From the NCBI GenBank assembly GCA_017940545.1, contig JAGAYI010000059.1:27177-91176 (forward strand): a stretch of 64,000 bases of DNA, in the 5' to 3' direction. Shown here piece by piece: positions 33,453 through 46,497 of this stretch (position 1 is the first letter of the stretch; each line of letters begins with the position of its first letter). A program made the translations under genes and the position numbers. The notes below the pieces were generated by a model that was not told the DNA's origin, ran no database searches, and saw nothing but the letters and a program-made list of their open reading frames with translations. Origin of the DNA: Prevotella sp. (GTDB lineage Bacteria > Bacteroidota > Bacteroidia > Bacteroidales > Bacteroidaceae).

Positions 33453-35147
33453 ATGTACCTTAGCAGTTGGTGGTTCATCATAGGCATTATCGCACTGGTA
33501 GTCGCATTCTATTTAGGAAGGTGGCTATACATTCGCAGTCTGCGCATGCGTAACCGACTTCAGATGGAGCGCATCTACACCAATATCACCCACGAACTGC
33601 TGACTCCACTGACCATTATCTCAGCTTCAGTAGAACATCTGCGGAACTCTGAACCCAAATATGGGTACGACTACGACATGATGCAACTGAACATTCAGCG
33701 CATGGTACGACTGCTTCAGCAAGTTCTGGAGACCAGCAAGTCGCAGGCTGGCGAACTGAAGCTGCTGGTCAGCAACGGTGACGTGATGAAATTTATTCGC
33801 GAAACAGCACTGACCATTGAGCCACTCATGCAAAAGAAAGGACTGAAATTCAGCATCAACTGCACTCCGGAAAGCATGATGGGCTGGATTGATACCGACA
33901 AGCTGGACAAAATTATTTTCAATCTGCTGACAAACGCGGCGAAATATACAGAAAAGCAAGGGCATGTAGAGTTAGACGTCAAGACCAACAAGCGTTTCGA
34001 CCATATTATTATACGCGTAAGGGACAATGGCATCGGTATTCCCAAAGAACGCCAGAAAGGACTGTTCCACCGTTTTTACGACGGGGAATACCGCAACCGC
34101 AACACCTTCGGTACAGGTATCGGTCTCTCGCTGACACGCGATTTAGTCTATCTGCACCACGGCACCATCAGTTTTGAGAGCGAGGAAGGTAAAGGAACAA
34201 CGTTCACCATCACCCTGCCTATCAACAAGGAAACCTTTGCCCCGTCGCAGATTGACGAGAAGAACAAGATTAACATCAAGGTTCCACAGAGCGTCATTCT
34301 CGACTTCGCCGAGATAGAGAGGAAAACCGGCGAAGAAATAGCCAAGGAGCATGAGGCAGAGGAGAATGCCTATAAGCTGCTAATTGTTGAGGACAACGTG
34401 GAACTGCTCATACTCATGCAACAACTGCTGCGCACCCAGTATCGCATATATACTGCCCAGAACGGCATGGAAGCACTCCAGGTGATCCAATCGACAGAGC
34501 TTGACCTCATCATCTCTGACGTCATGATGCCTGAAATGAACGGCTACGAACTGACCAAAGCCATTAAGGGGAACCCCGATTACAGCCATCTGCCCATCAT
34601 TCTGCTCACGGCAAAGATTCAGGACAACGACCGCCAGGAGGCACTCACCATTGGGGCCGACGACTTTATTGCCAAACCGTTCCACCTTCAAGACCTCCGC
34701 TTGCGCATAGACAACATTATCAAGAACCGTCAGCGCATACAGCGTGAGTTCAGGCAGCAGTCCATCAAAGAAACCAAAAAGAAGATTGCAGAAGCACCCA
34801 CACCCGACAATGAGTTCCTGCAACGAGCCATCCAGTGCGTCAACGACCATTTAGACGACACGGAGTTCGACCGCGATGCCTTTGCCCGCGAAATGGGCGC
34901 AAGCCAGTCAACGCTCTATAACAAGCTGCGGGCCATGACAGGCATGAACGTCACCAACTTCATTCGCAGCATCCGCATGAAGGCCATCGACGACATCATC
35001 CGTCAGGAACCCGACATCCGCGTCAGCGACCTGGCCTACAAGGTCGGCTTCAAGGACCCCAAATATTTTGCTACAGCATTTAAGAAGGAGTTTGGCATTC
35101 AGCCGAAGGAGTACATTGAGAAGATGACGTCAGCCACAACAAGCTGA
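33453..35147 (+). CDS. Hybrid histidine kinase/response regulator with AraC domain, no sensor
   Basis: 564 aa one-protein two-component system of the Bacteroidales hybrid type. A single membrane segment at residues about 5-25 (WWFIIGIIALVVAFYLGRWL) leads into a HisKA domain (ITHELLTPLTIISASVEHLR, His about 48) and HATPase (NLLTNAAKYTEK, RDNGIGIP, GTGIGLSL). A receiver domain (LIVEDN near 311, phospho-acceptor in DLIISDVMMPEMNG, Lys in AKPFH) and a C-terminal AraC-type HTH (residues about 460-560) follow. Classical members have about 700 residues of periplasmic propeller before the membrane segment; here only about five residues precede it. The start is at the first ATG after the control region. 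Its 3' end overlaps the convergent symporter gene by 68 bp. Confidence 0.87.
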   Translation: MYLSSWWFIIGIIALVVAFYLGRWLYIRSLRMRNRLQMERIYTNITHELLTPLTIISASVEHLRNSEPKYGYDYDMMQLNIQRMVRLLQQVLETSKSQAGELKLLVSNGDVMKFIRETALTIEPLMQKKGLKFSINCTPESMMGWIDTDKLDKIIFNLLTNAAKYTEKQGHVELDVKTNKRFDHIIIRVRDNGIGIPKERQKGLFHRFYDGEYRNRNTFGTGIGLSLTRDLVYLHHGTISFESEEGKGTTFTITLPINKETFAPSQIDEKNKINIKVPQSVILDFAEIERKTGEEIAKEHEAEENAYKLLIVEDNVELLILMQQLLRTQYRIYTAQNGMEALQVIQSTELDLIISDVMMPEMNGYELTKAIKGNPDYSHLPIILLTAKIQDNDRQEALTIGADDFIAKPFHLQDLRLRIDNIIKNRQRIQREFRQQSIKETKKKIAEAPTPDNEFLQRAIQCVNDHLDDTEFDRDAFAREMGASQSTLYNKLRAMTGMNVTNFIRSIRMKAIDDIIRQEPDIRVSDLAYKVGFKDPKYFATAFKKEFGIQPKEYIEKMTSATTS

Positions 35148-36525
35148 ACGTCAGAATACCATTCATCATCAAGAGCTCATAGCCGAAGGCATAGCCTGCG
35201 GCAGCAGCCGCTTTGTCAATAACCAGACACACTAAGGGCGACGCTACGGCTATGTAAGGCACAAAACGGTCACGTGGCATCCGACTGGTCAACAGTCCAA
35301 AGGCAAACAACCCTAACAACGGGCCGTAGGTATAGCTGACCAGTATATAGACAGCATCAATCACACTCGTCGAATTGAACACCCTGAACAGGACTATAAA
35401 TACGGCAAAGACCACGCTCATTCCCAAGTGCACCTTTTTCCGCAACCGTACGTCGTCGGTACGCTTGCAAATATCAACGCAGAAACTGGTGGTCATCGAC
35501 GTGATGGCAGAGTCGGCACTGGAAAAAGATGCCGCCACCACGCCCAACGTGAAGAGCACAATGACTGTAGTGCCTAATTCACCTGTTGCGGCAAACATGG
35601 TCAGCAGTTCGTCGCCCGCAGCAGGCAGCGCTATGCCCCGACGGTCAGCCAGCAAAACCAGCAGGATGCCCAAGGCCAAAAAGAGGAGGTTGACCGGCAC
35701 GAAGGCCAATCCGTAGCTGCACATGTCCTTTTGCGCTTCCCTCAGCGTCTTGCATGTCAGGTTCTTTTGCATTTTGTCCTGGTCAAGCCCCGTCATGACT
35801 ATCACAATAAAAATACCACTCAAAAACTGTTTCCAGAAATATTGCCTTGAGGTCCAGTCATCCCACACGAAGATGCGTGACATGGGGTGCTCACTCACCG
35901 TTTCAACGGCCTCGGCAGCCGTCAGCCCCAATTCACCCACCACCTTATATATAATAAGTAGCAGGGCGCCGAGCAGGCAAAACGTCTGGAGCGTGTCAGT
36001 CCACACCAATGTCTTGATGCCTCCCCGCCGGGTGTAGAGCCATATCAGCGCCACCAATCCAGACACCGTCAGGGCAAAGGGAACCCCCGCCCCGTCAAAG
36101 ACAAATCGCTGCAGAAGCATACACACCACATAGAACGCCACGGCTGCACCCGACATTTTCGAAACAAGAAAAAAACAGGCTCCTGTCTGATAGGCTCTCG
36201 TACCTAAACGTTGTCCCAGATAGCTGTATATGGAGGTCAGGTTCAGCCGGTAATACAATGGCAGTAGCAGGAAAGCCACGGCAAAATAGCCTACTATGAA
36301 GCCTAAACACGTCTGCAGGTAAGTCATTTCTATCTTCGTCACCATGCCGGGAACGCTGACAAAAGTCACGCCCGAAATAGAGGCCCCCACCATGCCGAAG
36401 GCCACCATATACCATGGCGACTTCCGCTCAGCACGGAAAAACGTCTCGTTCGTTGCCTGCCGACTGGTCCAGCGACTCACGCCGAACAGCACCAGAAAAT
36501 AGAGTAAAACAGTCAGAATCATCAT
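35080..36525 (-). CDS. Sodium/solute symporter (SSS family)
   Basis: About 481 aa membrane transporter with roughly 13 hydrophobic segments. Signatures are ERKSPWYMVAFGMVGASISG with VTFVSVPGM (SSS motif), GTRAYQTGACFFLVSK, and the C-terminal ASFSSADSAITSMTTSFCVD (sodium-site Ser residues). The start is placed at ATG 36525 because the promoter -7 box (TACCTTTG, 36541-36534) lies between that ATG and an upstream in-frame ATG at 36564; the transcript leader would then be very short. The solute is unknown. The last 68 bp are read in both directions with the hybrid kinase gene. Confidence 0.87.
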   Translation of the reverse strand: MMILTVLLYFLVLFGVSRWTSRQATNETFFRAERKSPWYMVAFGMVGASISGVTFVSVPGMVTKIEMTYLQTCLGFIVGYFAVAFLLLPLYYRLNLTSIYSYLGQRLGTRAYQTGACFFLVSKMSGAAVAFYVVCMLLQRFVFDGAGVPFALTVSGLVALIWLYTRRGGIKTLVWTDTLQTFCLLGALLLIIYKVVGELGLTAAEAVETVSEHPMSRIFVWDDWTSRQYFWKQFLSGIFIVIVMTGLDQDKMQKNLTCKTLREAQKDMCSYGLAFVPVNLLFLALGILLVLLADRRGIALPAAGDELLTMFAATGELGTTVIVLFTLGVVAASFSSADSAITSMTTSFCVDICKRTDDVRLRKKVHLGMSVVFAVFIVLFRVFNSTSVIDAVYILVSYTYGPLLGLFAFGLLTSRMPRDRFVPYIAVASPLVCLVIDKAAAAAGYAFGYELLMMNGILTFSLLWLTSSSQCTPSAECQTPS

Positions 36526-36533
36526 TTCGCCTG

Positions 36534-36565
36534 CAAAGGTACGATTAAGTGAGCGAAAAACCAAA
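36534..36565 (-). promoter_or_regulatory. Promoter of the symporter gene
   Basis: On the minus strand TACCTTTG runs from 36541 to 36534 with a TTTG box at 36565-36562, 20 bases upstream. The start codon at 36525 is only 8 bases past the -7 box, so the mRNA is leaderless or nearly so. Confidence 0.6.
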
Positions 36566-36685: not shown

Positions 36686-36717
36686 TTTGGGCAAAACGTC
36701 TAAGCTTCGTACCTTTG
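36686..36717 (+). promoter_or_regulatory. Promoter of the LuxR-type regulator gene
   Basis: TTTG at 36686-36689 and TACCTTTG at 36710-36717, 20 bases apart. This places the start of transcription after the in-frame ATG at 36687 and supports the ATG at 36738. Confidence 0.65.
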
Positions 36718-36737
36718 TACCCACAAATCAGATAAAT

Positions 36738-37379
36738 ATGGATCATTATATATTAGCTGACAATCAAGACCTGACCCGGTATGCCTTCGAAGCCATCATC
36801 AGGAAAGACGAACGGAACGTCATTCACCGGTCAACGGACAAAGCAGGGCTGATGCAACTGCTAAAGGAAAACGAAAACTCCGTGGTGGTTTTAGACTATA
36901 CGCTCTTCGACTTTATTGACGAAGAGCAGTTGCTCATCATCAGCGAGCGCTTTGCCATGGCCTCATGGGTGCTTGTCAGCGACGAACTCACCGAGTCGTT
37001 CCTGCGTCAGGTCATCTACTCTTCGCATGCCTTCAGCATTGTGTTCAAAGACAGCCCTCTCAAAGACATTCGCGATGCCCTTCGGTCAGCATCCCGCGGT
37101 CAGCGCTACGTGAGCCAAAAAGTCATGGAACAGCTTCTTTCCAAGCAGAGTGAGGAGAAGAACAACGGTGTGCTGACAGCTACTGAGATGGAAATCATCA
37201 AAGCCATTGCTCAAGGCAAGACGACAAAGGAAATTGCAGAGGAGCGTTTTTCAAGCATCCACACCATTACCACCCACCGCAAGAATATTTTTCGGAAACT
37301 GGATGTCAACACAGCCCACGAAGCCATTAAGTATGCCATTCGTGCCGGCTGGGTTCACCCCAGTGAGTTCTACATTTAG
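36738..37379 (+). CDS. LuxR-type response regulator
   Basis: 213 aa. The N-terminal half is a receiver-like domain: the acidic position is ADN (Asp8-Asn9), the putative phospho-acceptor is Asp53 in SVVVLDYTL, and Lys is in IVFKDS near 104. The C-terminal half is a LuxR HTH: LTATEMEIIKAIAQGKTTKE, then IAEERFSSIHTITTHRKNIF. The start at 36738 is chosen from the promoter position and because MDHYILADNQ begins the domain; the 17 codons upstream overlap the promoter. The stop abuts the stop of the convergent PLP-enzyme gene, with no terminator between, so antisense interference is possible. Confidence 0.87.
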   Translation: MDHYILADNQDLTRYAFEAIIRKDERNVIHRSTDKAGLMQLLKENENSVVVLDYTLFDFIDEEQLLIISERFAMASWVLVSDELTESFLRQVIYSSHAFSIVFKDSPLKDIRDALRSASRGQRYVSQKVMEQLLSKQSEEKNNGVLTATEMEIIKAIAQGKTTKEIAEERFSSIHTITTHRKNIFRKLDVNTAHEAIKYAIRAGWVHPSEFYI

Positions 37380-38618
37380 TCAGACCTGCGAAATGGCATT
37401 CTTGATGTCGTCGAGAAGATCCTCCGGAGCCTCCAGTCCTATGCTGAGGCGCACGGTTTTCTCTGAAACTGCCATTTCCCGGCGTTGCTCGTCTGTAAAG
37501 AGTCCGAAGATGGTGGAGGCAGGGTGAATGGCCAGCGACTTGCGGTCGAAGAGATTAGTGGCACGGTGGACGACCTGCAGGTGGTCAATGAATGCGAAGG
37601 CAGCCTCCCGGGTGTCGAGGTCAATGGTAAAGACGGCTCCTGGCAACGGGCCGAACTGCCGGGAAGATATTTCATAGAACGGATTATCCTCTAATCCCGT
37701 ATAGTTGACGTGTTTGATTTCGGGCAGTTCACGACATTGCCGCGCCAGCCACAGCGTGCTTTCCGCCTGCCGTTGGAAGCGCAGCTGCAGCGTGTCAAGT
37801 CCCAGTGTTTCCATGTAGGCAGGCTGTGGTGTCATCAGTGCTCCGAGGTTGGTCACCAGTTCGGTCTTGACACGGGCGGTGAAGGCCAGTTTCTTCCCCA
37901 CCCTTTTCGTCAGGTTCTGCAATACTTTTCCGGGGTGTCGTGACCAGTCAAATTGTCCGTAGTCAATGAGCAGGCCGCCAAGCCCAGTTCCTCCGCCCGA
38001 AATATATTTGGTACTGCTGACCACTTCAATATCTATTCCGAAGTTTCGGGCATGGAAGGTGCTGAAAGGCACAATGGTCGTATCGGCTATCAGGGGCACC
38101 CCTGCTCTGTGTGCCAGGTCAGCTAATGCGGAGATGTCGGCCACGAAGAGCTGGGGGTTGGTAATTACTTCAAAGAATATGGCACAGGTCTTTTCGTCAA
38201 TAAGCGACTCTACGGCTTTTAGGTCGGTAAAATCAGCAAAGCGCGCCTCCACGCCAAAAGCTCCCAACGTGTCACGGATGAGCGACACGCTGTTGCCAAA
38301 CAAATGCTTGGAAGCAACAATGTTCAGTGCTGAGCCACTGACAGCCGTCAGCGCATAGCTGATGGCAGCCATACCCGTATTGAGTGCCGTCACGCTGACG
38401 GCCCCGGTTATCTGCTGCACGCGCCTTTCCAAATATGTCGTCGTCGGGTTGGCTATGCGTGCATAGCTGGGTGCCATGCTCCTGCCGCAGAAAGCATCGC
38501 TCATGTCCTTCGCCGTGGGGAACTCGAATGCTGCTGTGTAATACACCGGCATTGCGAGTGCCCCATAGGCATCGGGTTTCTGGTATTTGGTTGTTAAGAC
38601 CTTTGTTTCGTATCTCAT
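37380..38618 (-). CDS. Cys/Met-metabolism PLP enzyme (MetY/MetB/methionine gamma-lyase family)
   Basis: 412 aa fold-type I PLP enzyme. PSYARIANPTTTYLERRV near residue 50 is the family phosphate-binding start, TALNTGMAAISYALTAV follows, and the PLP lysine is in SSTKYISGGGTGLGG near residue 207. Family members act on O-acetylhomoserine, cystathionine or methionine; sequence alone does not settle which. As the last gene of the sulfur-carrier/encapsulin operon, a MetY-like role (accepting sulfur from a carrier-protein thiocarboxylate onto an activated homoserine) is the best contextual fit. It lies 53 bp after the cysteine desulfurase gene. Confidence 0.85.
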   Translation of the reverse strand: MRYETKVLTTKYQKPDAYGALAMPVYYTAAFEFPTAKDMSDAFCGRSMAPSYARIANPTTTYLERRVQQITGAVSVTALNTGMAAISYALTAVSGSALNIVASKHLFGNSVSLIRDTLGAFGVEARFADFTDLKAVESLIDEKTCAIFFEVITNPQLFVADISALADLAHRAGVPLIADTTIVPFSTFHARNFGIDIEVVSSTKYISGGGTGLGGLLIDYGQFDWSRHPGKVLQNLTKRVGKKLAFTARVKTELVTNLGALMTPQPAYMETLGLDTLQLRFQRQAESTLWLARQCRELPEIKHVNYTGLEDNPFYEISSRQFGPLPGAVFTIDLDTREAAFAFIDHLQVVHRATNLFDRKSLAIHPASTIFGLFTDEQRREMAVSEKTVRLSIGLEAPEDLLDDIKNAISQV

Positions 38619-38671
38619 ATTCTTGCTATTTTTTCGAGGAGGGAGAAGGGAGGAACGAAAATCCCCCCGTT

Positions 38672-40138
38672 TTATCTTCCAACTATCTTTCTGACGGCAA
38701 CAACCAGTTTGTCCACGTCATCACGGGTATTGTAGAGGGCAAAGGTAGGACGTACAGACATTTCGTAGCCTAAGGCCCTGAGCGCCGGCTGCGCACAGTG
38801 GTGACCGGCACGCACGGCAATACCCTCCTTGTCGAGCAGGGTGCCCACCTCAGGCACGGGGATTCCGTCGAGCACAAATGAAACGACAGAGACCCGCTGC
38901 CGGGGATTGCCGATGAGTGTCAGCCCGGGAATCTGGGCGAGCTGTTCGCGGGCATACTCAGTCAGCTGGTGCTCATGGTGTTCAATATTTCGGATTCCCA
39001 AATGGCTGACGTAGTCGAGAGCAGCCCCCAGCCCGATGGCATCAGCCACGTTGGGCGTACCAGCTTCGAAACGTGCCGGGGGCTGGTTGTACTCCGTGCG
39101 TTCTATGGTCACATCCTTAATCATGTTGCCACCTCCCTGCCACGGCTGCATCTTGTCGAGCAAGTCCTTACGGCCATACACCGCGCCGATGCCGTTGGGA
39201 CCGTAAATCTTATGACCGCTGAAGACGAAGAAATCGGCCCCTAACTGCTGTACGTCAACAGGCGTGTGGGCTATTGACTGTGCACCATCTATCAGCACAG
39301 GAATGTGGTGACTGTGGGCAATGTCAATGATGCGCCGTACGTCGTTGATGGTGCCGAAGGTATTATTCACATGCCCAACGCTGACAAAACGCGTCCGTGG
39401 CGTAATGAGCCGTTCAAACTCTGAAAGAATCAGGTCACCGTTCTGGTCGGTGGGAATGGCCCGGAGCGTAGCACCCTTCTCCTGGCACACCCGCTGCCAA
39501 GGCACGATGTTGGCATGATGGTCCAGCTCGCTGACAATGACCTCGTCGCCTGGCGTCAGGTACTGACGGCCGTATGCCTGTGCCACGAGATTGATGCCTT
39601 CGGTGGTGCCTCGCACGAAGACTATCTCCTCGCTCGAGGCGGCATTAATGAAGCGCTGCACCTTCTCGCGGGCTTCCTCGTAGGCATCGGTGGCTCGGGC
39701 GGCCAACGTGTGGGCTCCGCGGTGAATGTTCGAATTATACGTCTTGTAATAGTCCGAAATCTTGTCAATGACCTGCAAGGGCTTCTGCGTGGTAGCCCCG
39801 TTGTCGAGCCAGACGAGGTCGTGACCATTCACCTTTTGGTTGAGCACGGGGAAGTCGGCCTTAATCTGTTCCGAGTTCAGCGTGTCGGCCTCCTCGTAGT
39901 GCAGCTGGTTCAGCTCCGACTCCCCAAAGGGTCTCACCCCCAAGCCCCCACCCCGTTCTTCAGGGTTAGGCAAGGCGGAGAGGTTCAGCGGCTCGTCAGT
40001 TGGCAGCGGAAACTGCTCTTTGCGCTGCTCCTGCCACTCCTCGGGACAATTCTTCTGCGCCACCTGCCGCAGCAGCTCAAACCCTGGGTCGTCGAGCCCG
40101 TAGCCGTTTATTACATTCGTGTCTATTGAGGTAATCAT
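38672..40138 (-). CDS. Cysteine desulfurase (SufS-like), probable encapsulin cargo
   Basis: 488 aa PLP enzyme taking sulfur from cysteine to form a persulfide. The SufS/CsdA-type core begins at about residue 88 (QIKADFPVLNQKVNGHDLVW, LDNGATTQKP); HRGAHTLAARATDAYE, the PLP lysine in FVFSGHKIYGPNGIGAVYG and the active Cys in RAGHHCAQPALRA are intact. The core is preceded by about 85 extra residues that are polar and low in complexity (NCPEEWQEQRKEQF, later PEERGGGLGVRPF). Ordinary SufS lacks this; such N-terminal extensions mark desulfurases loaded into Family 2 encapsulins, and the shell gene lies 17 bp upstream. Part of the extension is encoded by a repeat-like GC-rich stretch (39921-39962). 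Confidence 0.88.
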   Translation of the reverse strand: MITSIDTNVINGYGLDDPGFELLRQVAQKNCPEEWQEQRKEQFPLPTDEPLNLSALPNPEERGGGLGVRPFGESELNQLHYEEADTLNSEQIKADFPVLNQKVNGHDLVWLDNGATTQKPLQVIDKISDYYKTYNSNIHRGAHTLAARATDAYEEAREKVQRFINAASSEEIVFVRGTTEGINLVAQAYGRQYLTPGDEVIVSELDHHANIVPWQRVCQEKGATLRAIPTDQNGDLILSEFERLITPRTRFVSVGHVNNTFGTINDVRRIIDIAHSHHIPVLIDGAQSIAHTPVDVQQLGADFFVFSGHKIYGPNGIGAVYGRKDLLDKMQPWQGGGNMIKDVTIERTEYNQPPARFEAGTPNVADAIGLGAALDYVSHLGIRNIEHHEHQLTEYAREQLAQIPGLTLIGNPRQRVSVVSFVLDGIPVPEVGTLLDKEGIAVRAGHHCAQPALRALGYEMSVRPTFALYNTRDDVDKLVVAVRKIVGR

Positions 40139-40155
40139 AATATCTCACTAAAAAA

Positions 40156-41595
40156 CTATTTTTCTACTTTATTCCGGTGCTGGTAGTCATGGTAGTAGCC
40201 CACTTCCACATTCTCCAGTACGGCAATGGCATCGTCTGTCAGGGCGGCCAGCGAGAAGTATTTCGTCAGCAGATAGGAGGCTACACCAAACTTGTCGAGT
40301 CCCATCAGGCGTGCTGACAAACTGGGGGCTATCTCTCCGGGAATGCCACTCTGATGCAGACCCACCACGCCCTGGCTCTTTTCACCGACACGCACCAAGA
40401 TTATTTTGGTGGTGCCGACGCCACGCCCCGTCAGGAACTGGCCTTCCACCTCCACCTTGTCGCTCGGAATCAGAGGGACGCCACGCCACAGAATGACCTT
40501 TGTGCCAAACAAATCGGTGGTCGTCGGCGGTACGCCACGCCAGGTACATTCGCGCTCAAAGGCCGCAATAGCACGCGGATGAGCCACGAAGAATGCCGGT
40601 TCCTTCCATACAAGCGACAACAGCTCGTCCAGGTCGTCGGGCGTCGGGGCACCATAGCGTGTGGTGATACGGTAGGCCGGATTGACAGCCGACAGCAGGC
40701 CGAACTTCTGGTTGTTAATCAGTTCCCACTCCTGACGCTCCTTGATACTCTCTATAGAGAGTCGCAACTGTTCCTCCAACTGATTGTAGGGATTATTATA
40801 AAGGTCACTCACCCGGGTATGCACACGAACCACCGTCTGCAGCGTGTTCAGCGAATACTCCGTCGGTTGTTCTTCGTAGTCAATGTATGTCTCGGGAATG
40901 ATGTTGTCTTCCTCATGACCACTCACCAAGTCGATGTGCTTCTCACCATGGTCGTTGACGGTGGCCTTCAGACGCAGCTGCTTATCGACGGCTTTATTGA
41001 AGGTCTCGCGGAAATCGGGCACTTCCCTGATAAACTTCTCCAGTTCCTTGAGCTTCAGTCCGAGAAACACGGTGGGCGTAACGGCACGCACGGAAACGGT
41101 CGATTCTGCATCGTCCAGCAGGTCTGTCTCGCCGAAATATTCACCATCGCCCAGCAGGGCAATGCGCAACTCCTCACCGTGAGGGCCATGACTGATAACC
41201 TCTGCCTGCCCGCTGGCCACAATAAAGAACTTCTGCTTGTCCTTTCCTTCTTCAACGAAGAGCTTGCCGAGTCCTATTTCCTGTGTCTCAAACGAACGGG
41301 CCAGCCGGTTTACTATCTCGTCGTCGAACTCTGAGAACAGCGGAATAGCCTTCAGACTCTTCGCAGAGAACGAGGGTTCTCCGTTCAGAAACTGAATGGG
41401 GAGCCGTTCGCTCTTGCGAAGCTCCACCTTGGTACGGTTCACGCGGAACGTGCCGCCACTTACTTGTACCCAAGGTAACAGTTTCAGCAATAATCTTGGG
41501 GTAATGCTGCCCATCTGGGGAGCCGTTTTGGTTGTGGTCGCCAGTTTTCTGGCGGTGGCAGTGGTCACACTGCGCTGCAAATTTGAATCAGCCAT
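40156..41595 (-). CDS. Family 2 encapsulin shell protein with cyclic-nucleotide-binding-like insert
   Basis: 479 aa from the ATG at 41595 (a GTG three codons earlier is less likely). The N-terminal arm TITPRLLLKLLPWVQVSGGT-like segment (SITPRLLLKLLPWVQVSGGT) and VNRTKVELRKSERLPIQF precede a cNMP-binding-like domain at about residues 80-195 (LKAIPLFSEFDDEIVNRLAR, then GDGEYFGETDLLDDAES). From about 240 to the end is the HK97-like shell fold (LNTLQTVVRVHTRVSDLYNN, LSLVWKEPAFFVAHPRAIAA, GVPPTTTDLFGTKVILWRGV, GVVGLHQSGIPGEI). Proteins like this have often been annotated as Crp/Fnr regulators, but there is no HTH. By domain content it is Family 2B-like, yet the adjacent cargo gene is a cysteine desulfurase. 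It forms an icosahedral cytosolic compartment in family members. Confidence 0.87.
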   Translation of the reverse strand: MADSNLQRSVTTATARKLATTTKTAPQMGSITPRLLLKLLPWVQVSGGTFRVNRTKVELRKSERLPIQFLNGEPSFSAKSLKAIPLFSEFDDEIVNRLARSFETQEIGLGKLFVEEGKDKQKFFIVASGQAEVISHGPHGEELRIALLGDGEYFGETDLLDDAESTVSVRAVTPTVFLGLKLKELEKFIREVPDFRETFNKAVDKQLRLKATVNDHGEKHIDLVSGHEEDNIIPETYIDYEEQPTEYSLNTLQTVVRVHTRVSDLYNNPYNQLEEQLRLSIESIKERQEWELINNQKFGLLSAVNPAYRITTRYGAPTPDDLDELLSLVWKEPAFFVAHPRAIAAFERECTWRGVPPTTTDLFGTKVILWRGVPLIPSDKVEVEGQFLTGRGVGTTKIILVRVGEKSQGVVGLHQSGIPGEIAPSLSARLMGLDKFGVASYLLTKYFSLAALTDDAIAVLENVEVGYYHDYQHRNKVEK

Positions 41596-41640
41596 AACTT
41601 TCACTCTTTTTATATGAATTACTATTGATTGGTTTTTCTA

Positions 41641-41862
41641 CTATTTACGGATTGTCACCTTGTGGGTAGTGCCCTCCACATGCTCCACCGAAACCACGTC
41701 ATATCCCTGTTCCCTGGCATTGCGGGGCACGTTGTCAAGCGGTTCTCCTTCCGAGAGCAGTACCTCTAAGATGTCTCCCTCCTGTAATTTCGACAACTCT
41801 ATCTTGGTCTTGACAAATGTCATCGGGCAGTGTTCCCGAGTTATGTCTAAAGTCTTTTTCAT
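41641..41862 (-). CDS. TusA/SirA-like sulfur carrier protein
   Basis: 73 aa. The start is the ATG at 41862 (MKKTLDITREHCPMTFVKTK); the much longer upstream frame belongs to the intergenic region and to another register of the DsrE-like gene. Cys12 in HCPMTFVKTKIELSKLQEGD matches the TusA active cysteine (CPxP in E. coli, CPMT here), and GDILEVLLSEGEPLDNVPRN is the typical second half. TusA-like proteins pass persulfide sulfur from a desulfurase to acceptors. Its place between the DsrE-like and encapsulin genes supports a sulfur-relay role. Confidence 0.88.
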   Translation of the reverse strand: MKKTLDITREHCPMTFVKTKIELSKLQEGDILEVLLSEGEPLDNVPRNAREQGYDVVSVEHVEGTTHKVTIRK

Positions 41863-41921
41863 TTTACTATATTTCTGTTTTAACCATTTTACTATTTCAC
41901 AGCTCTTTTCGACGGCAAAAG

Positions 41922-42401
41922 TCAAATAAACAGCGTTTGTCCGCCTTCTGAAAGCTTCAGGAACGATGCAACACCAAGCACGTCCTTCACCTCGGGTATG
42001 AAGTCTTCCTTCTTCAGTCCCAGCACGTGCATGGCCATCTCGCAGGCATACAGGTTGATGCCCAGCACCTTGGCCGCCTCCACCAGTTCCTCTAATGTTG
42101 CAACGTTGTTTTTCTTCATCAGGTAGCGGAAAATCCTGGGACCGGCACCACAAAAGTTAAACTTTGTGGTGGGTGCTACATGCAGGCCACCCATCATGAA
42201 GCCGAAAAGCTTAGTCAGCCATGTTCCGCCCACAAACGAGTGGCCCTGCTTCTGCTTGATGGCATCCAGCCCCCAGAAGGTAAAGAAGATGTTTACTTCG
42301 TAACCCACGGCAGCAGCCCCCGTAGCAAGTGTGAAGACGGCCGTCAGCTTGTCAAAATCGCCGCTGAAGGCGATGATGCTCAGTTTTCTTGTTTCGCTCA
42401 T
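41922..42401 (-). CDS. DsrE/DsrF/DrsH-like sulfur-transfer protein
   Basis: 159 aa protein of the DsrE-like peroxiredoxin-fold family. The N-terminal KLSIIAFSGDFDKLTAVFTL, then GYEVNIFFTFWGLDA, and the cysteine-containing LYACEMAMHVLGLKKEDFI are typical; a second Cys is in KFNFCGAG. Family members bind persulfide sulfur on the conserved Cys and work with TusA. It starts 6 bp after the cysteine synthase gene and lies 59 bp before the TusA-like gene, so it belongs to the same relay. Confidence 0.87.
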   Translation of the reverse strand: MSETRKLSIIAFSGDFDKLTAVFTLATGAAAVGYEVNIFFTFWGLDAIKQKQGHSFVGGTWLTKLFGFMMGGLHVAPTTKFNFCGAGPRIFRYLMKKNNVATLEELVEAAKVLGINLYACEMAMHVLGLKKEDFIPEVKDVLGVASFLKLSEGGQTLFI

Positions 42402-42407
42402 ACTTTT

Positions 42408-43343
42408 TTATTCCACATGATATATTTGTGTACTCAGATAACGTTCTCCCGTGTCAGGCAGCAGCACCACAATGGTTTTCCCCTCATTCTCAGGTCTGCG
42501 GGCCAGCTTGACGGCGGCAGCAACAGCAGCACCGCTGGAGGTGCCGGCCAGCACACCGTCCTTACGTGCCAGCAGCCTGCCTACGGCAAACGCCTCGTCG
42601 TCCTTGATGCGCAGCAGCTCGTCATAGACCTCGGCATCCAATGTCTTCGGCTTGAAACCGGCTCCAATGCCCTGAATTTTATGGGGTCCCGGGCGTCCGC
42701 CGCTGAGCACCGCCGACGTGTAAGGTTCCACGCCCACCACCTTCACCTTCGCATTGTACTGCTTCAGCACCTGTCCGACACCCGTAATGGTGCCGCCCGT
42801 GCCAATGCCCGCCACAAACAGGTCAATTCTGCCGTCGGTATCGCGCCATATTTCCTCGGCCGTCGTCCGTCGATGCACCTCCGGGTTGGCAGGGTTCTCG
42901 AATTGCTGGGGTATGTAGGCATCGCCTATTGCCGCTGCTAACTCTTGCGCCTTGCGAATGGCACCCGCCATTCCCTCGTGGGCAGGGGTCAGCACCAGCT
43001 CGGCACCTAACGAGCTGAGCAGCTGTCTGCGCTCCACCGTCATGGCATCGGGCATGGTCAGAATAAGCCGGTAGCCACGAATAGCACTGATGAAGGCCAG
43101 TCCTATTCCGGTGTTACCACTCGTAGGCTCAATAATCGTTGTGTGAGGACCTATGAGTCCCTTGCGCTCTGCCCGTTCTATAAGGGCCAGTGCCGTGCGG
43201 TCTTTCACCGACCGCAGCGGGTTCAACTGCTCCAGCTTGGCTACTATGCGTGCGCTGAGTTTCAGTTCCTGCTCAGTTCCCGTCAGTTCCAGCAAAGGCG
43301 TATTGCCTATCAGATCAGTCAAATTTTTTGCTATCTGTGCCAT
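42408..43343 (-). CDS. Cysteine synthase (CysK/CysM family)
   Basis: 311 aa fold-type II PLP enzyme. The PLP lysine is in LNPLRSVKDRTALAL at about residue 42, the phosphate/substrate loop is EPTSGNTGIGLAFISAIRGY, the second glycine loop is VAGIGTGGTITGVGQVLKQ and the C-terminal Ser is in VLAGTSSGAAVAAAV. It makes cysteine from O-acetylserine or O-phosphoserine with sulfide or a carrier-protein thiocarboxylate. Direct neighbours encode a ThiS-like carrier, E1-like enzyme and JAMM protease, as in the mycobacterial CysM-CysO-Mec+ pathway, which makes a carrier-dependent (CysM-like) role likely. Confidence 0.93.
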   Translation of the reverse strand: MAQIAKNLTDLIGNTPLLELTGTEQELKLSARIVAKLEQLNPLRSVKDRTALALIERAERKGLIGPHTTIIEPTSGNTGIGLAFISAIRGYRLILTMPDAMTVERRQLLSSLGAELVLTPAHEGMAGAIRKAQELAAAIGDAYIPQQFENPANPEVHRRTTAEEIWRDTDGRIDLFVAGIGTGGTITGVGQVLKQYNAKVKVVGVEPYTSAVLSGGRPGPHKIQGIGAGFKPKTLDAEVYDELLRIKDDEAFAVGRLLARKDGVLAGTSSGAAVAAAVKLARRPENEGKTIVVLLPDTGERYLSTQIYHVE

Positions 43344-43370
43344 CTCTTCCTCTTTATTTTTAATTAAGTC

Positions 43371-43772
43371 TTACTTGTTTTCCTGTTTGAAATGCTCCTC
43401 CTTGCCAACCACCTCACCGTGCTGAATGCTGAAGGAGTTTAAGTGTATGCCTTCGTGCAGCGAGAGTATGGCATAGCGAATGCGCGGGTCATTAGCCAGA
43501 CGGATGTCTTCCTGCGAGGGGCGCGACGGCGATGCCGGATGACTGTGCCAGTTGGCCAGAATCTGCAGTCCGTGCTCACGAGCATACTTCAGGGCTGCAA
43601 ACTGCTGTCGAGGAGCAAAAGAGAAATGTTCTGGCGAGTGGTCAATATTCTCCATTGCATAGTTTTCTGTCACCTCGTCGCCCCGGCCTAACAGGTAGCC
43701 GCACGACTCGTCGGGAGCCTCGCGCTGCGCCTGTCTGATCAGTTCATCTACAATGTTCTGTGGTACAAACAT
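43371..43772 (-). CDS. JAMM/MPN+ zinc metalloprotease (Mec+-like)
   Basis: 133 aa single-domain JAB1/MPN+ peptidase. All JAMM ligands are visible: Glu22 in PDESCGYLLG, the His pair in NWHSHPASPSRPSQED with the Ser and Asp. In characterised sulfur-carrier pathways such proteases free the diglycine end of a ThiS-like protein or release the amino acid joined to it. The adjacent E1-like enzyme gene (24 bp) and the carrier ending in Gly-Gly-Cys make it the probable processing enzyme here. Confidence 0.9.
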   Translation of the reverse strand: MFVPQNIVDELIRQAQREAPDESCGYLLGRGDEVTENYAMENIDHSPEHFSFAPRQQFAALKYAREHGLQILANWHSHPASPSRPSQEDIRLANDPRIRYAILSLHEGIHLNSFSIQHGEVVGKEEHFKQENK

Positions 43773-43796
43773 ATTTATTCCCTGTTTTTTTATTCT

Positions 43797-44606
43797 TCAC
43801 TTATGCAGGTCGCACGCAGCCTGCTCATAGTCTATGAGGTGGTCTATGGTAGGATGCTCACCACAAATTTCACAAGTCGCACGGCGCTTGACCTTGAAGC
43901 TGCGGAAGTCCATCGTCTTGGCATCGAACGTCAGCAGGCGGTCGGTCAGCAGGTCGCCAATACCTATAACGTACTTCAGCGCTTCAGCGGCCTGAATGGT
44001 GCCCAGCATACCGGCAATGGCACCCAGCACACCGGCCTGCGAACAGGTAGGCACGGCGCCTGCAGGGGGCGGCTGTTTAAAGAAACAGCGGTAACAAGCC
44101 GAGCCGGGCACGTGGGTAAACGTCTGTCCGCGGAAACGGAGTATTCCACCATGCGAGAACGGCTTGTCTAACCGCATGCAGGCATCATTGATGAGGAACT
44201 TCACGGGGAAGTTGTCCGTCCCGTCAATGACAAAGTCCCACGGGGCAATGATTTCCTCGGCATTCGTCGAGTCTAAGAACTGGTAGTACGTGGTCACCTC
44301 CACGTCGGGGTTAATGGCAAGCATTTTCTCCTTGGCGCTTTCCACTTTCGGTACGTTCACGTCCTTCGTAAAGTGAATCACCTGACGCTGCAGGTTGCTT
44401 AAATCAACCACATCGGCATCAACAATTCCTATGTGCCCCACCCCGGCTGCTGCCAGATAGAGGGCAGCCGGAGCACCCAGCCCGCCGGCACCGACAATGA
44501 GCACGCGAGCATTCAGAATTTTCTCCTGGCCCTCTACGCCCACGTCCTGCAGCAAGATGTGGCGCGAATATCGCTGTATTTGTTCTTCTGAAAAGTCAAA
44601 CATCAT
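43797..44606 (-). CDS. ThiF/MoeB/HesA-type E1-like adenylyltransferase
   Basis: 269 aa from the ATG at 44606 (a GTG 12 codons upstream is a weaker start). EEQIQRYSRHILLQDVG is the standard ThiF/MoeB opening, GAGGLGAPAALYLAAAGVG binds ATP, and DVVDLSNLQRQVIHF follows. The zinc cysteines are in CYRCFF and CEICGEH, and TCSQAGVLGAIAGMLGTIQA carries the conserved Cys. It has no C-terminal rhodanese domain, unlike MoeZ, so sulfur must come from a partner (the desulfurase/TusA/DsrE set encoded downstream). It adenylates the C-terminal glycine of the ThiS-like carrier. The gap to the carrier gene is 78 bp and holds a dispersed repeat. Confidence 0.92.
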   Translation of the reverse strand: MMFDFSEEQIQRYSRHILLQDVGVEGQEKILNARVLIVGAGGLGAPAALYLAAAGVGHIGIVDADVVDLSNLQRQVIHFTKDVNVPKVESAKEKMLAINPDVEVTTYYQFLDSTNAEEIIAPWDFVIDGTDNFPVKFLINDACMRLDKPFSHGGILRFRGQTFTHVPGSACYRCFFKQPPPAGAVPTCSQAGVLGAIAGMLGTIQAAEALKYVIGIGDLLTDRLLTFDAKTMDFRSFKVKRRATCEICGEHPTIDHLIDYEQAACDLHK

Positions 44607-44651
44607 TCCTAACTTTTTTGTGTTGCAAAATTCATTCTTCACTTTTCATGA

Positions 44652-44667
44652 GCGGTAGCAAACTCTA
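44652..44667. repeat. Second copy of the dispersed GCGGTAGCAAACTCT repeat
   Basis: GCGGTAGCAAACTCTA here matches 32095-32110 exactly. It sits between the carrier gene and the E1-like gene inside the operon, followed by ACACTCTAAAC, which resembles the sequence after the other copy. Confidence 0.7.
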
Positions 44668-44684
44668 CACTCTAAACTTTTCAC

Positions 44685-44897
44685 TCAACAGCCTCCTCCA
44701 CCCATGAAGTAGAGAAAATCCACCTTGTCGCCCTCCGCGACCTGAATGCGGTCCCAGTCGTCGCGCTCGGCAAACTCTTCGTTCACCTGCACCGAAACCA
44801 TTTCCGGGTTCTCTACCAACAGGTTCCTAACAAGCTCTGTCACCGTGAGCGGCAGCTTCACTTCCTGTACGTCTCCATTTACATAAATCTTAGCCAT
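44685..44897 (-). CDS. ThiS/MoaD-like sulfur carrier protein ending in Gly-Gly-Cys
   Basis: 70 aa beta-grasp carrier. The start is the ATG at 44897 (MAKIYVNGDVQEVKLPLTVT), because the promoter lies between it and the longer upstream frame. It contains VQVNEEFAERDDWDRIQVAE and ends KVDFLYFMGGGGC. Standard ThiS/MoaD end in Gly-Gly; here one Cys follows. A C-terminal extra residue or dipeptide that a JAMM protease removes is known for QbsE in Pseudomonas; the same is likely here, since the protease gene is two genes downstream. It is the first gene of the nine-gene operon. Confidence 0.9.
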   Translation of the reverse strand: MAKIYVNGDVQEVKLPLTVTELVRNLLVENPEMVSVQVNEEFAERDDWDRIQVAEGDKVDFLYFMGGGGC

Positions 44898-44924: not shown

Positions 44925-44954
44925 CAAAGGTACGGCGAAAACCGCACGTGCAAA
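44925..44954 (-). promoter_or_regulatory. Promoter of the sulfur-carrier/encapsulin operon
   Basis: Minus-strand TACCTTTG (44932-44925) with TTTG (44954-44951) 18 bases upstream, 27 bases before the carrier start codon. Confidence 0.65.
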
Positions 44955-44977: not shown

Positions 44978-44995
44978 ATACCAAACGTTTGGTAT
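44978..44995. promoter_or_regulatory. 18-bp perfect palindrome, candidate operator
   Basis: ATACCAAACGTTTGGTAT is fully self-complementary. It lies 23 bases upstream of the -33 box of the sulfur operon and about 70 bases upstream of the trpB-like promoter, a position suited to an activator or shared regulator. No regulator gene is adjacent. Confidence 0.6.
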
Positions 44996-45135: not shown

Positions 45136-46497
45136 ATGGCAACAAGACAAAAGAAATTCCTGTTACAGGAAAATGAGATTCCCACACAGTGGTACAACAT
45201 TCAGGCCGACATGCCCACCAAACCCATGCCGCCCATTCACCCCGCCACCAAGCAACCACTCGGCGTTGACGACCTGGCACACATCTTCCCGCGTGAATGC
45301 TGCGTACAGGAACTGGACACGGAACACCGCTGGATTGACATTCCCGAGGAGGTGCTCGAGAAATACAAGTATTACCGCTCCACACCGCTGGTACGTGCCT
45401 ACGGACTGGAGGAGGCTCTCGGCACTCCGGCACATATCTACTTCAAGAACGAAAGTACCAACCCGCTGGGTTCACATAAAATCAACTCCGCAATACCCCA
45501 GTGCTACTATGCCAAGCAGGAAGGAACCACCAACGTCACCACTGAGACGGGTGCCGGACAGTGGGGCGCCGCACTCAGCTACGCCGCCAAGCTCTACGGG
45601 CTGGACTGTGCCGTATATCAGGTGAAAATCACCATGCAGCAGAAGCCCTACCGCTCCAGCATCATGCGCACCTTCGGCGCCGTCGTTGAAGGCTCACCGT
45701 CCATGTCCACCCGTGCCGGTAAGGACATACTTACCAAGGACCCCACCCACAGCGGCTCACTCGGCACCGCCATTTCTGAGGCCGTCGAGCTGGCCACCAC
45801 CACCCCCAACTGTAAATATGTACTCGGCTCCGTGCTCAACCACGTAGGGCTGCACCAGACCATCATCGGACTGGAGGCCGAGAAGCAGATGCAGATGGCC
45901 GGCGAATATCCAGACACGGTCATTGCCTGCTTCGGCGGAGGCTCCAACTTCGGCGGCATCGCGTTTCCCTTCATGCGTCACAACCTGCTGGACGGAAAGA
46001 AGACGGAGTTCATAGCCGCAGAACCCGACAGCTGTCCTAAACTGACACGCGGACAGTTCCGCTACGACTTCGGCGACGAGGCCGGCTACACACCGCTGCT
46101 GCCCATGTTCACCCTGGGCCACAACTTCAAGCCCTCTAACATACACGCCGGCGGACTGCGCTACCACGGCGCCGGCATGATAGTCAGCCAACTCATCAAG
46201 GACGGACTGATGCACGGCGTGGATATTCCACAGTTGGAGACATTCGAAGCCGGTATGCTGTTCGCACGTACCGAGGGCATCATTCCCGCACCCGAGAGCT
46301 GCCATGCCATAGCAGCAACCATCCGCGAGGCCAAGAAGTGCAAGGAGACCGGCCAGGAGAAGGTCATTCTGTTCAACCTCTCCGGACACGGGCTCATCGA
46401 CATGCCCAGCTATGAATCGTTCATCAAGGGCGACCTGCAGAACTATACCGTGACCGACGAGATGATAGCCGAAAACCTGGCTGAACTCGACAAATAA
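45136..46497 (+). CDS. TrpB2-type tryptophan synthase beta subunit
   Basis: 453 aa PLP enzyme. The PLP lysine is in NPLGSHKINSAIPQCYYAK at about residue 115; ETGAGQWGAALSYAAKLYG, the second-half CFGGGSNFGG loop and EPDSCPKLTRGQFRYDFGDE follow. The long N-terminus (RQKKFLLQENEIPTQWYNIQ) and overall length are those of the TrpB2 subgroup, not the TrpA-bound TrpB1. TrpB2 enzymes join indole to serine or act with other partners. It is monocistronic with its own promoter and terminator, and divergent from the sulfur operon with which it may share the palindrome. Confidence 0.9.
   Translation: MATRQKKFLLQENEIPTQWYNIQADMPTKPMPPIHPATKQPLGVDDLAHIFPRECCVQELDTEHRWIDIPEEVLEKYKYYRSTPLVRAYGLEEALGTPAHIYFKNESTNPLGSHKINSAIPQCYYAKQEGTTNVTTETGAGQWGAALSYAAKLYGLDCAVYQVKITMQQKPYRSSIMRTFGAVVEGSPSMSTRAGKDILTKDPTHSGSLGTAISEAVELATTTPNCKYVLGSVLNHVGLHQTIIGLEAEKQMQMAGEYPDTVIACFGGGSNFGGIAFPFMRHNLLDGKKTEFIAAEPDSCPKLTRGQFRYDFGDEAGYTPLLPMFTLGHNFKPSNIHAGGLRYHGAGMIVSQLIKDGLMHGVDIPQLETFEAGMLFARTEGIIPAPESCHAIAATIREAKKCKETGQEKVILFNLSGHGLIDMPSYESFIKGDLQNYTVTDEMIAENLAELDK

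Follow-up and report, generated by a model that had tools for sequence, protein, structure and literature searches.

A Family 2B encapsulin locus of Prevotella encoding a putative sulfur relay to a thiocarboxylate carrier

Gene content of the locus

We analysed a stretch of 64,000 nucleotides from Prevotella sp. (assembly GCA_017940545.1, contig JAGAYI010000059.1, positions 27,177 to 91,176 of the forward strand), hereafter the window, which is part of a 91-kb contig from a 2.2-Mb assembly that is ~70% complete. From position 44897 down to 37380, its minus strand carries nine open reading frames (ORFs) that join the shell of a Family 2B encapsulin and a putative cargo desulfurase to a ThiS-like sulfur carrier and further proteins of sulfur metabolism. 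A preliminary description had listed nine minus-strand genes with gaps of 6-78 bp; all of these ORFs were indeed found open, separated by 78, 24, 27, 6, 59, 45, 17 and 53 bp, and the name of each is supported by Pfam and NCBIfam profile matches. For ThiS, ThiF, TusA and the shell, the start was set at an internal ATG rather than at the first listed start. Comparisons were made with a first set of 30 loci (the window and stretches of 12-20 kb from 29 relatives) and with a second, overlapping set of named loci representing the best 80 of 488 confirmed shell matches, many of which are cut by contig ends. The nine genes, the adjoining regulator gene and the promoter elements are as follows.

44685..44897, minus strand: ThiS-like sulfur carrier (pro-carrier, with residues past the first GGG); PF02597, TIGR01683, C-terminal tails
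43797..44606, minus strand: E1-like ThiF/MoeB adenylyltransferase without rhodanese domain; PF00899 as sole Pfam match, nearest PDB entries MoeB/Uba4/ThiF
43371..43772, minus strand: JAMM/Prok-JAB metalloprotease with full catalytic motif; PF14464, HxHPx5PSxxD in 25/25
42408..43343, minus strand: CysK cysteine synthase, O-acetylserine type; TIGR01139 at 438.5 bits (cut-off 350.95), best PDB entries of CysK/OASS type
41922..42401, minus strand: DsrE2-like sulfurtransferase, YACEM Cys kept (30/30); PF13686, NF047629 at 66.8 bits, under the cut-off of 210
41641..41862, minus strand: TusA sulfurtransferase, CPMT Cys kept (30/30); PF01206
40156..41595, minus strand: Family 2B encapsulin shell with an insertion of cyclic nucleoside monophosphate (cNMP)-binding fold; NF041163, PF19307, PF00027, PDB 9bje and 6x8m
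38672..40138, minus strand: SufS-type cysteine desulfurase with an N-terminal extension of ~85 aa, putative cargo; PF00266, NF041166 at 729 bits, under the cut-off of 800, active-site Cys in 30/30
37380..38618, minus strand: MetY-type O-acetylhomoserine sulfhydrylase; PF01053, TIGR01326 at 315.6 bits, under the cut-off of 495.1, best PDB entry 3ri6
36687..37379, plus strand: LuxR/NarL-type regulator, candidate operator binder, convergent with MetY; GerE domain, homologue near the module in 16/30 and 39/80 loci
44979..44994, no strand: palindromic operator TACCAAACGTTTGGTA within an 18-bp perfect palindrome (44978-44995); TACC-N8-GGTA in relatives
44925..44932, minus strand: -7 element TACCTTTG of TAnnTTTG type, 46 nt past the operator; spacing conserved in relatives

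The shell protein scores 567.6 bits against NF041163 (cut-off 400), which refines its earlier assignment from Family 2 to Family 2B. Its SrpI-like HK97 shell domain matches PF19307 at 376 bits, in the PDB it comes closest to 9bje and SrpI (6x8m), and a cNMP-binding domain (PF00027) is inserted at 110-190. The classic phosphate-binding pattern of cNMP-binding domains, R[ST]A, was found in 0/30 shell insertions. According to a passage of PMC12407261, cyclic nucleotides are not bound by the inserted domain of Family 2B shells, and on these two grounds cNMP control of the shell is disfavoured.

By eye, LLRQVAQKNCPEE in the N-terminal extension of the desulfurase resembles LARLANEFFS, described in the accessible part of PMC8049743 as the N-terminal loading-domain motif of the cargo desulfurase. 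Since the protein aligns to model positions 216-623 of NF041166 only, its N-terminus is unlike that of the model. The N-terminal linkers of these desulfurases differ greatly from one relative to another and contain tandem repeats in loci L123 and L134; on visual inspection, the window linker (NPEERGGGLGVRPFGE, 39915-39975) resembles a dispersed repeat that has come to be translated, and in locus L167 the desulfurase frame seems interrupted in a contig of a metagenome-assembled genome.

The window carrier ends in FMGGGGC. A tail past GGG was found in all module carriers of the overlapping sets (25/25 in the first, 63/63 among the best 80 of 488), with 1 to ~40 residues of highly variable sequence following FMGGG or the like, while every thiamine-type ThiS paralogue read in this family stops right at GG (20/20). 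A thiamine role of the window carrier is ruled out, as the thiamine-type paralogues are separate and the C-terminus differs (GG vs GGGGC). Because module carriers are tailed and thiamine-type paralogues end at GG, the JAMM protease, whose catalytic motif is intact in every copy, is predicted to trim the tail and thus probably matures the pro-carrier; HcyD/HcyS and QbsD/QbsE are precedents for JAMM-type maturation of a tailed carrier. The corresponding pathway genes of Wolinella succinogenes are reportedly HcyS/HcyF/HcyD-MetY, HcyS bearing one or more residues after Gly-Gly, and both a pro-carrier tail and a JAMM protease, marks of that pathway, are present here. In the 269-aa E1 protein, a Pfam scan found PF00899 alone.

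The cysteine synthase passes the cysK model given above and stays below the cysM model (TIGR01138, 292.4 bits, cut-off 394.2); its top PDB matches are CysK/OASS-type entries, and the family patterns are complete in 21/21 copies, including GIGAGF, which we take as a mark of the O-acetylserine type. Among PDB sequences, MetY comes closest to 3ri6 (350 bits; runner-up 259), presumably the MetY that serves the thiocarboxylate pathway in Wolinella, a likeness that is at the level of sequence and is not proof of substrate.

Linkage of shell and carrier genes among relatives

Of 201 Bacteroidaceae genomes searched with the profile of the shell family PF19307, 30 gave a match above cut-off (31 at E 0.001). 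Across the first set, DsrE, TusA, shell and desulfurase genes are each present in 30/30 loci, MetY in 28 or 29 depending on the count, ThiS, ThiF and JAMM each in 25, CysK in 21 and the LuxR-type regulator in 16. In the second set, desulfurase was found in 79 of the best 80 of 488 loci, DsrE and TusA in 77 each, MetY in 71, ThiF in 64, ThiS in 63, JAMM in 61, LuxR in 39 and CysK in 33. If the count is restricted to named loci flanked on each side by 7.5 kb or more, ThiS, ThiF, JAMM, DsrE, TusA and desulfurase occur all together in 36/39. The order of the module genes varies widely, and carrier and shell genes lie in divergent or separate operons in many relatives. The nine-gene operon described earlier thus stands as a nine-gene run in the window and is one of several arrangements of the module.

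A standalone JAMM gene was found in 32/201 family genomes, comprising all 30 shell-bearing genomes and only 2 of the 171 shell-less ones (G028, whose assembly is 56% complete, and G039), as counted at E <1e-21, the next matches starting only from 1e-13. The trio of ThiS, ThiF and JAMM genes is not beside the shell in 5/30 loci, yet occurs elsewhere in those genomes, on another contig in G171, G023, G066 and G049 and ~13 kb away in G199. Among the named shell matches listed, the closest (99%) comes from the uncultured Prevotellaceae genome RUG571; many are from ruminant stomach, and Prevotella aff. ruminicola Tc2-24 and a Xylanibacter ruminicola assembly are included.

The shell occurs rarely beyond the family, with 6 of 395 class genomes matching when the window's own and one weak match are counted. 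All four clear out-of-family shells are accompanied by a desulfurase, and two by a nearby CysK-like gene. The carrier trio was not found near any of them within the 5 to 20 kb read for each, and JAMM was above cut-off in 0/4 of these genomes, with one match below it. At 307-319 aa, the open frames of three of these shells leave no room for the insertion; the fourth has 492 aa. With no trio beside the out-of-family shells, the coupling of shell and carrier is seen only in this family.

The preliminary description would have been undermined had the two groups of genes rarely been linked in relatives. Instead, the genes are linked, co-occur and share a promoter type (see below), which supports one system: judging from gene neighbourhoods, a desulfurase-shell unit and a carrier unit (ThiS, E1, JAMM) are co-inherited and usually linked, and their association is not due to chance.

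Beyond the nine genes, only the LuxR-type regulator recurs in more than 9/30 loci. The commonest true extra neighbour encodes a TonB receptor (9/30), and the remaining ORF clusters found in at least 10 loci lie, bar single ORFs, inside module genes and are shadow ORFs. In the window, a gene for a TrpB-like enzyme dependent on pyridoxal phosphate (45136-46497) is divergent from the operon; as homologues occur in 1/80 named and 0/29 other module loci, it is not part of the module. Beyond the LuxR-type gene lie an SSF-family symporter gene (35080-36564; homologue in 0/80 named module loci) and a gene for a hybrid histidine kinase/response regulator/AraC protein (33453-35147).

A shared operator and a candidate regulator

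The promoter noticed earlier in front of the nine genes is backed by the conserved palindrome and the -7 element listed above. We scanned 96 distinct loci for TACC-N8-GGTA within 250 bp upstream, grouping them by the first gene of the operon. The site precedes 37/39 ThiS-led, 33/33 DsrE-led and 12/15 CysK-led operons, as well as 5/10 ThiF-led, 1/2 shell-led and 0/3 desulfurase-led ones. It is rare before internal genes (ThiS 1/39, DsrE 1/59, shell 0/91), except CysK (9/36), and its density across the same loci, true sites counted, is 0.019 per 250 bp. TAnnTTTG, which we take to be the Bacteroidota -7 consensus, lies downstream in 91 of 96 upstream regions bearing the site and starts exactly 46 nt on in 86; a reversed control motif was not seen in these 96 regions. 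At divergent loci (e.g., L050), a single palindrome serves both promoters at the 46-nt spacing. The site also precedes ThiS in three of the five separate trios (G171, G199 and G066). In the shell-less G028 and G039, no site stands directly before ThiS; in G039 it precedes the CysK gene of the trio's cluster. As far as upstream sequences can tell, carrier and shell operons thus share a promoter type in many species.

The phased pattern TACC-N8-GGTA-N46-TAnnTTTG matches 63/201 family genomes; a reversed control also matches some genomes, so that part of these matches are due to chance. An attempt to define a wider regulon with the short palindrome in G000 and G075 was dropped in favour of the phased pattern, since a control matched about equally (2 vs 3 and 8 vs 8). 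We examined 70 site loci (40 picked by eye, the other 30 as given by the search tool) and obtained the first gene for 65: 14 MetY, 12 CysK, 10 a secreted 300-aa protein, 6 a lipoprotein, 4 a LuxR-type regulator, 3 MnmA-like, 2 SusD, 2 TonB receptor, and the rest single. The four regulator-first sites are all in shell-less genomes. Two of the secreted 300-aa proteins were scanned with Pfam and gave no match, one lipoprotein was YtkA-like, and one each of the SusD, TonB receptor and MnmA-like proteins was Pfam-scanned. An apparent cysteine/methionine regulon driven by the phased promoter was noticed in Bacteroidaceae (L242, L260, L262, L284 and others among L230-L299), with the MetY, CysK, LuxR-type regulator and MnmA-like genes as well as one SDF-family symporter gene.

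The secreted 300-aa protein, which has no Pfam family, is encoded near the module in 8/30 loci, often with SusC/SusD-like genes:

L042:17481-20000; L043:11505-17239; L048; L053; L054; L055; L056; L057

Because ten regulon sites precede genes of its family, we propose that it may import a sulfur source.

The LuxR/NarL-type regulator is a good candidate for the protein binding TACC-N8-GGTA because its homologue co-occurs with the phased operator-promoter: among 62 genomes, the phased site is present in 32/41 with a regulator homologue vs 2/21 without (Fisher 2.7e-7, kinship uncorrected). The operator also fits the 7-2-7 sites of NarL. A LuxR/NarL-type sulfur regulator acting at this operator probably controls the module in many species; a description of a sulfur regulator of Bacteroides was not found in the literature searched. 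The result is a predicted Bacteroidaceae sulfur regulon with a defined operator, comprising CysK, MetY, transport, shell and carrier genes.

A proposed sulfur relay, its alternatives and known counterparts

Two genomes suggest what the shell may stand in for. In the shell-less G028 (L188:4216-12471), the trio adjoins a gene for a sulfite reductase that bears a TusA domain at its C-terminus. Genes beside them encode two members of PF01507, read as CysH and CysD, and a GTPase, read as CysN; a LuxR-type gene precedes the trio. G023 (L189:6876-12113) encodes the same fusion ~11 kb from its trio, with CysH/CysN/CysD-like genes. The window module has a free TusA, DsrE2 and a putatively encapsulated desulfurase in place of the fusion, and none of its nine genes was recognised by Pfam as a sulfite reductase or sulfate gene. 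In G104, CysD/CysN/CysH-like genes lie directly before the module, and CysK is absent from the module there. A general lack of sulfate assimilation in shell-bearing genomes was set aside as weak: PF01507 was detected at E <1e-40 in 4/30 of them vs 13/30 shell-less genomes, but the latter were picked at 99-100% completeness and the former range over 69-99; moreover, it was found in 0/11 shell-less genomes of the window's own genus.

We favour, with some reserve, a sulfur assimilation module of Prevotella-type Bacteroidaceae from the rumen, in which sulfur would pass from the encapsulated desulfurase through TusA/DsrE2 to a ThiS thiocarboxylate and on to homocysteine by way of MetY. CysK would capture sulfide as cysteine, from which the desulfurase within the shell would take sulfur, storing it in sulfane form, and it would leave the shell by way of DsrE2 and TusA. 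JAMM would cut the pro-carrier back to its Gly-Gly end, E1 would adenylate the trimmed carrier, and the TusA persulfide would convert it to the thiocarboxylate. MetY would place the sulfur of ThiS on O-acetylhomoserine, after which JAMM would release homocysteine for methionine, so that the shell would fill the place of the sulfite reductase-TusA fusion of the shell-less relative. The carrier pathway probably builds methionine, while the direction of flux and the storage of sulfur in the shell are inferred. The more specific proposition of an encapsulin with a dedicated sulfur exit, delivering sulfane sulfur through DsrE2/TusA to a tail-processed carrier and into homocysteine with no free sulfide, under one operator type and a NarL-type regulator, seems to us evenly balanced.

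Several observations weigh against this reading. The desulfurase falls short of the cargo cut-off of NF041166, a GFGIGIPE-type stretch kept in 62/83 relatives is gone from it, and its lysine pattern, found in 29/30, is missed in L035. MetY lies under every listed NCBIfam cut-off and its lysine pattern is present in 26/29, being missed in L040, L047 and L049. At least one further PF01053 gene occurs in 29/30 shell-bearing genomes, so the module need not be the sole route to homocysteine. TACC-N8-GGTA precedes only 1/55 MetY-led operons, and it was not found before ThiS in G023 and G049, where the trio lies apart from the shell. A regulator homologue is absent from 6/30 shell-bearing and present in 16/30 shell-less genomes; upstream of the regulator itself in module loci, the palindrome occurs in 8/53 cases (not de-duplicated) and the phased -7 in 0/53. 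The genomes are related, hence the counts are not independent. Finally, CysK makes and the desulfurase consumes cysteine, and a futile cycle is possible unless the two are separated in time.

A less likely but serious alternative holds that two sulfur units answer sulfur limitation under one regulator with no direct transfer between them, the shell, CysK, desulfurase, DsrE2 and TusA forming a store and ThiS, E1, JAMM and MetY using free sulfide. MetY and CysK genes elsewhere do carry the same promoter type, and the trios of G023 and G049 lie ~15 kb or less from sulfate-assimilation genes, on a contig other than that of the shell. However, as CysK and MetY with this promoter type also occur in shell-less genomes, the 30/30 vs 2/171 co-occurrence is tighter than shared regulation requires, and the free TusA of the module has a counterpart in the TusA domain that the sulfite reductases of G028 and G023 carry.

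It is improbable that the carrier chiefly makes cysteine with CysK as acceptor, as in the Mycobacterium CysO-CysM-Mec+ system. The presence of CysK in 21/30 loci would suit such a role, and class 4c operons of Iyer 2006 (PMC1779556, as far as accessible) join a cysteine synthase with ThiS/JAB/E1. Yet the enzyme is a canonical CysK by score and by its GIGAGF pattern, it is missing from 9/30 loci vs a MetY present in 28-29/30, and its E1 partner is without a rhodanese domain such as MoeZR is described to have. The CysM-like user of the carrier proposed in the preliminary description is not supported; the remaining course of the relay, from desulfurase and shell through TusA/DsrE2 and ThiS to MetY, fits the gene anatomy. 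CysK more likely loads the shell with cysteine rather than using the carrier, given its O-acetylserine-type sequence, its occurrence in 21/30 loci and the CysK-like genes beside two of the four carrier-less shells outside the family. Slightly less probable still is a ubiquitin-like tagging of shell or cargo by ThiS, attached by E1 and removed by JAMM to control loading or turnover: a Ubl, E1 and JAMM set is present and E1 and JAMM match the archaeal SAMP-activation (320 bits, cut-off 450) and desampylase (59 bits, cut-off 130) models below cut-off, but no E2-like gene was identified among the recurring neighbours, the accompanying genes encode sulfur enzymes, and CysK and MetY have the same type of promoter.

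If the favoured relay is correct, the module gives desulfurase shells a likely downstream user of sulfur. Literature on desulfurase encapsulins proposes rhodanese acceptors, and no final sulfur product was found in the portions covered. With the full acceptor chain encoded alongside the shell, transfer from shell to product could be rebuilt from nine genes. Many of the Bacteroidaceae concerned live in the stomachs of ruminants, and the economy of sulfide and methionine there bears on animal nutrition. The combination of a shell with a carrier pathway was not found described in the literature searched, most subscription papers and all preprints being outside its scope.

As in the Family 2 desulfurase encapsulins (SrpI; Nichols 2021, PMC8049743; Andreas and Giessen 2021, PMC8346489, both in excerpt), an HK97-type shell gene is followed by that of a SufS-type desulfurase with an extended N-terminus. 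Such encapsulins are common: the sections of PMC8346489 consulted count 199 Family 2B and 1281 Family 2A desulfurase operons. Among accessory genes, the strongest enrichment is given there for serine acetyltransferase and rhodanese, and a rhodanese is proposed as sulfur acceptor; unlike the systems treated there, the window shell comes with ThiS, E1, JAMM, DsrE2, TusA and MetY. A carrier-based pathway of this kind exists in Wolinella succinogenes (PMC6225789, in the part available). The window shares with HcyS/HcyF/HcyD-MetY the carrier, E1, JAMM and MetY, the tailed carrier and a MetY nearest to 3ri6, but its nine genes include a putatively encapsulated desulfurase, DsrE2 and CysK instead of sulfite reductase and sulfate genes. 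Class 4e of Iyer 2006, as given in extracts of PMC1779556, unites ThiS, JAB, E1 without rhodanese, SirA (TusA) and O-acetylhomoserine sulfhydrylase with sulfate assimilation genes. The window module contains this same core, with shell and desulfurase where class 4e has sulfate assimilation genes, while the G028 neighbourhood, with its trio, sulfate genes and sulfite reductase-TusA, agrees with class 4e itself. The Mycobacterium tuberculosis CysO-CysM-Mec+ system (PMC3227635, in part) likewise combines a thiocarboxylate carrier, a protease and an enzyme of the cysteine synthase family, from which the window differs by a CysK-type synthase, an E1 without rhodanese and the presence of MetY. Family 2B desulfurase operons and thiocarboxylate pathways are therefore known already, and the module described here is set apart from both CysO-CysM and the sulfate-fed HcyS pathway.

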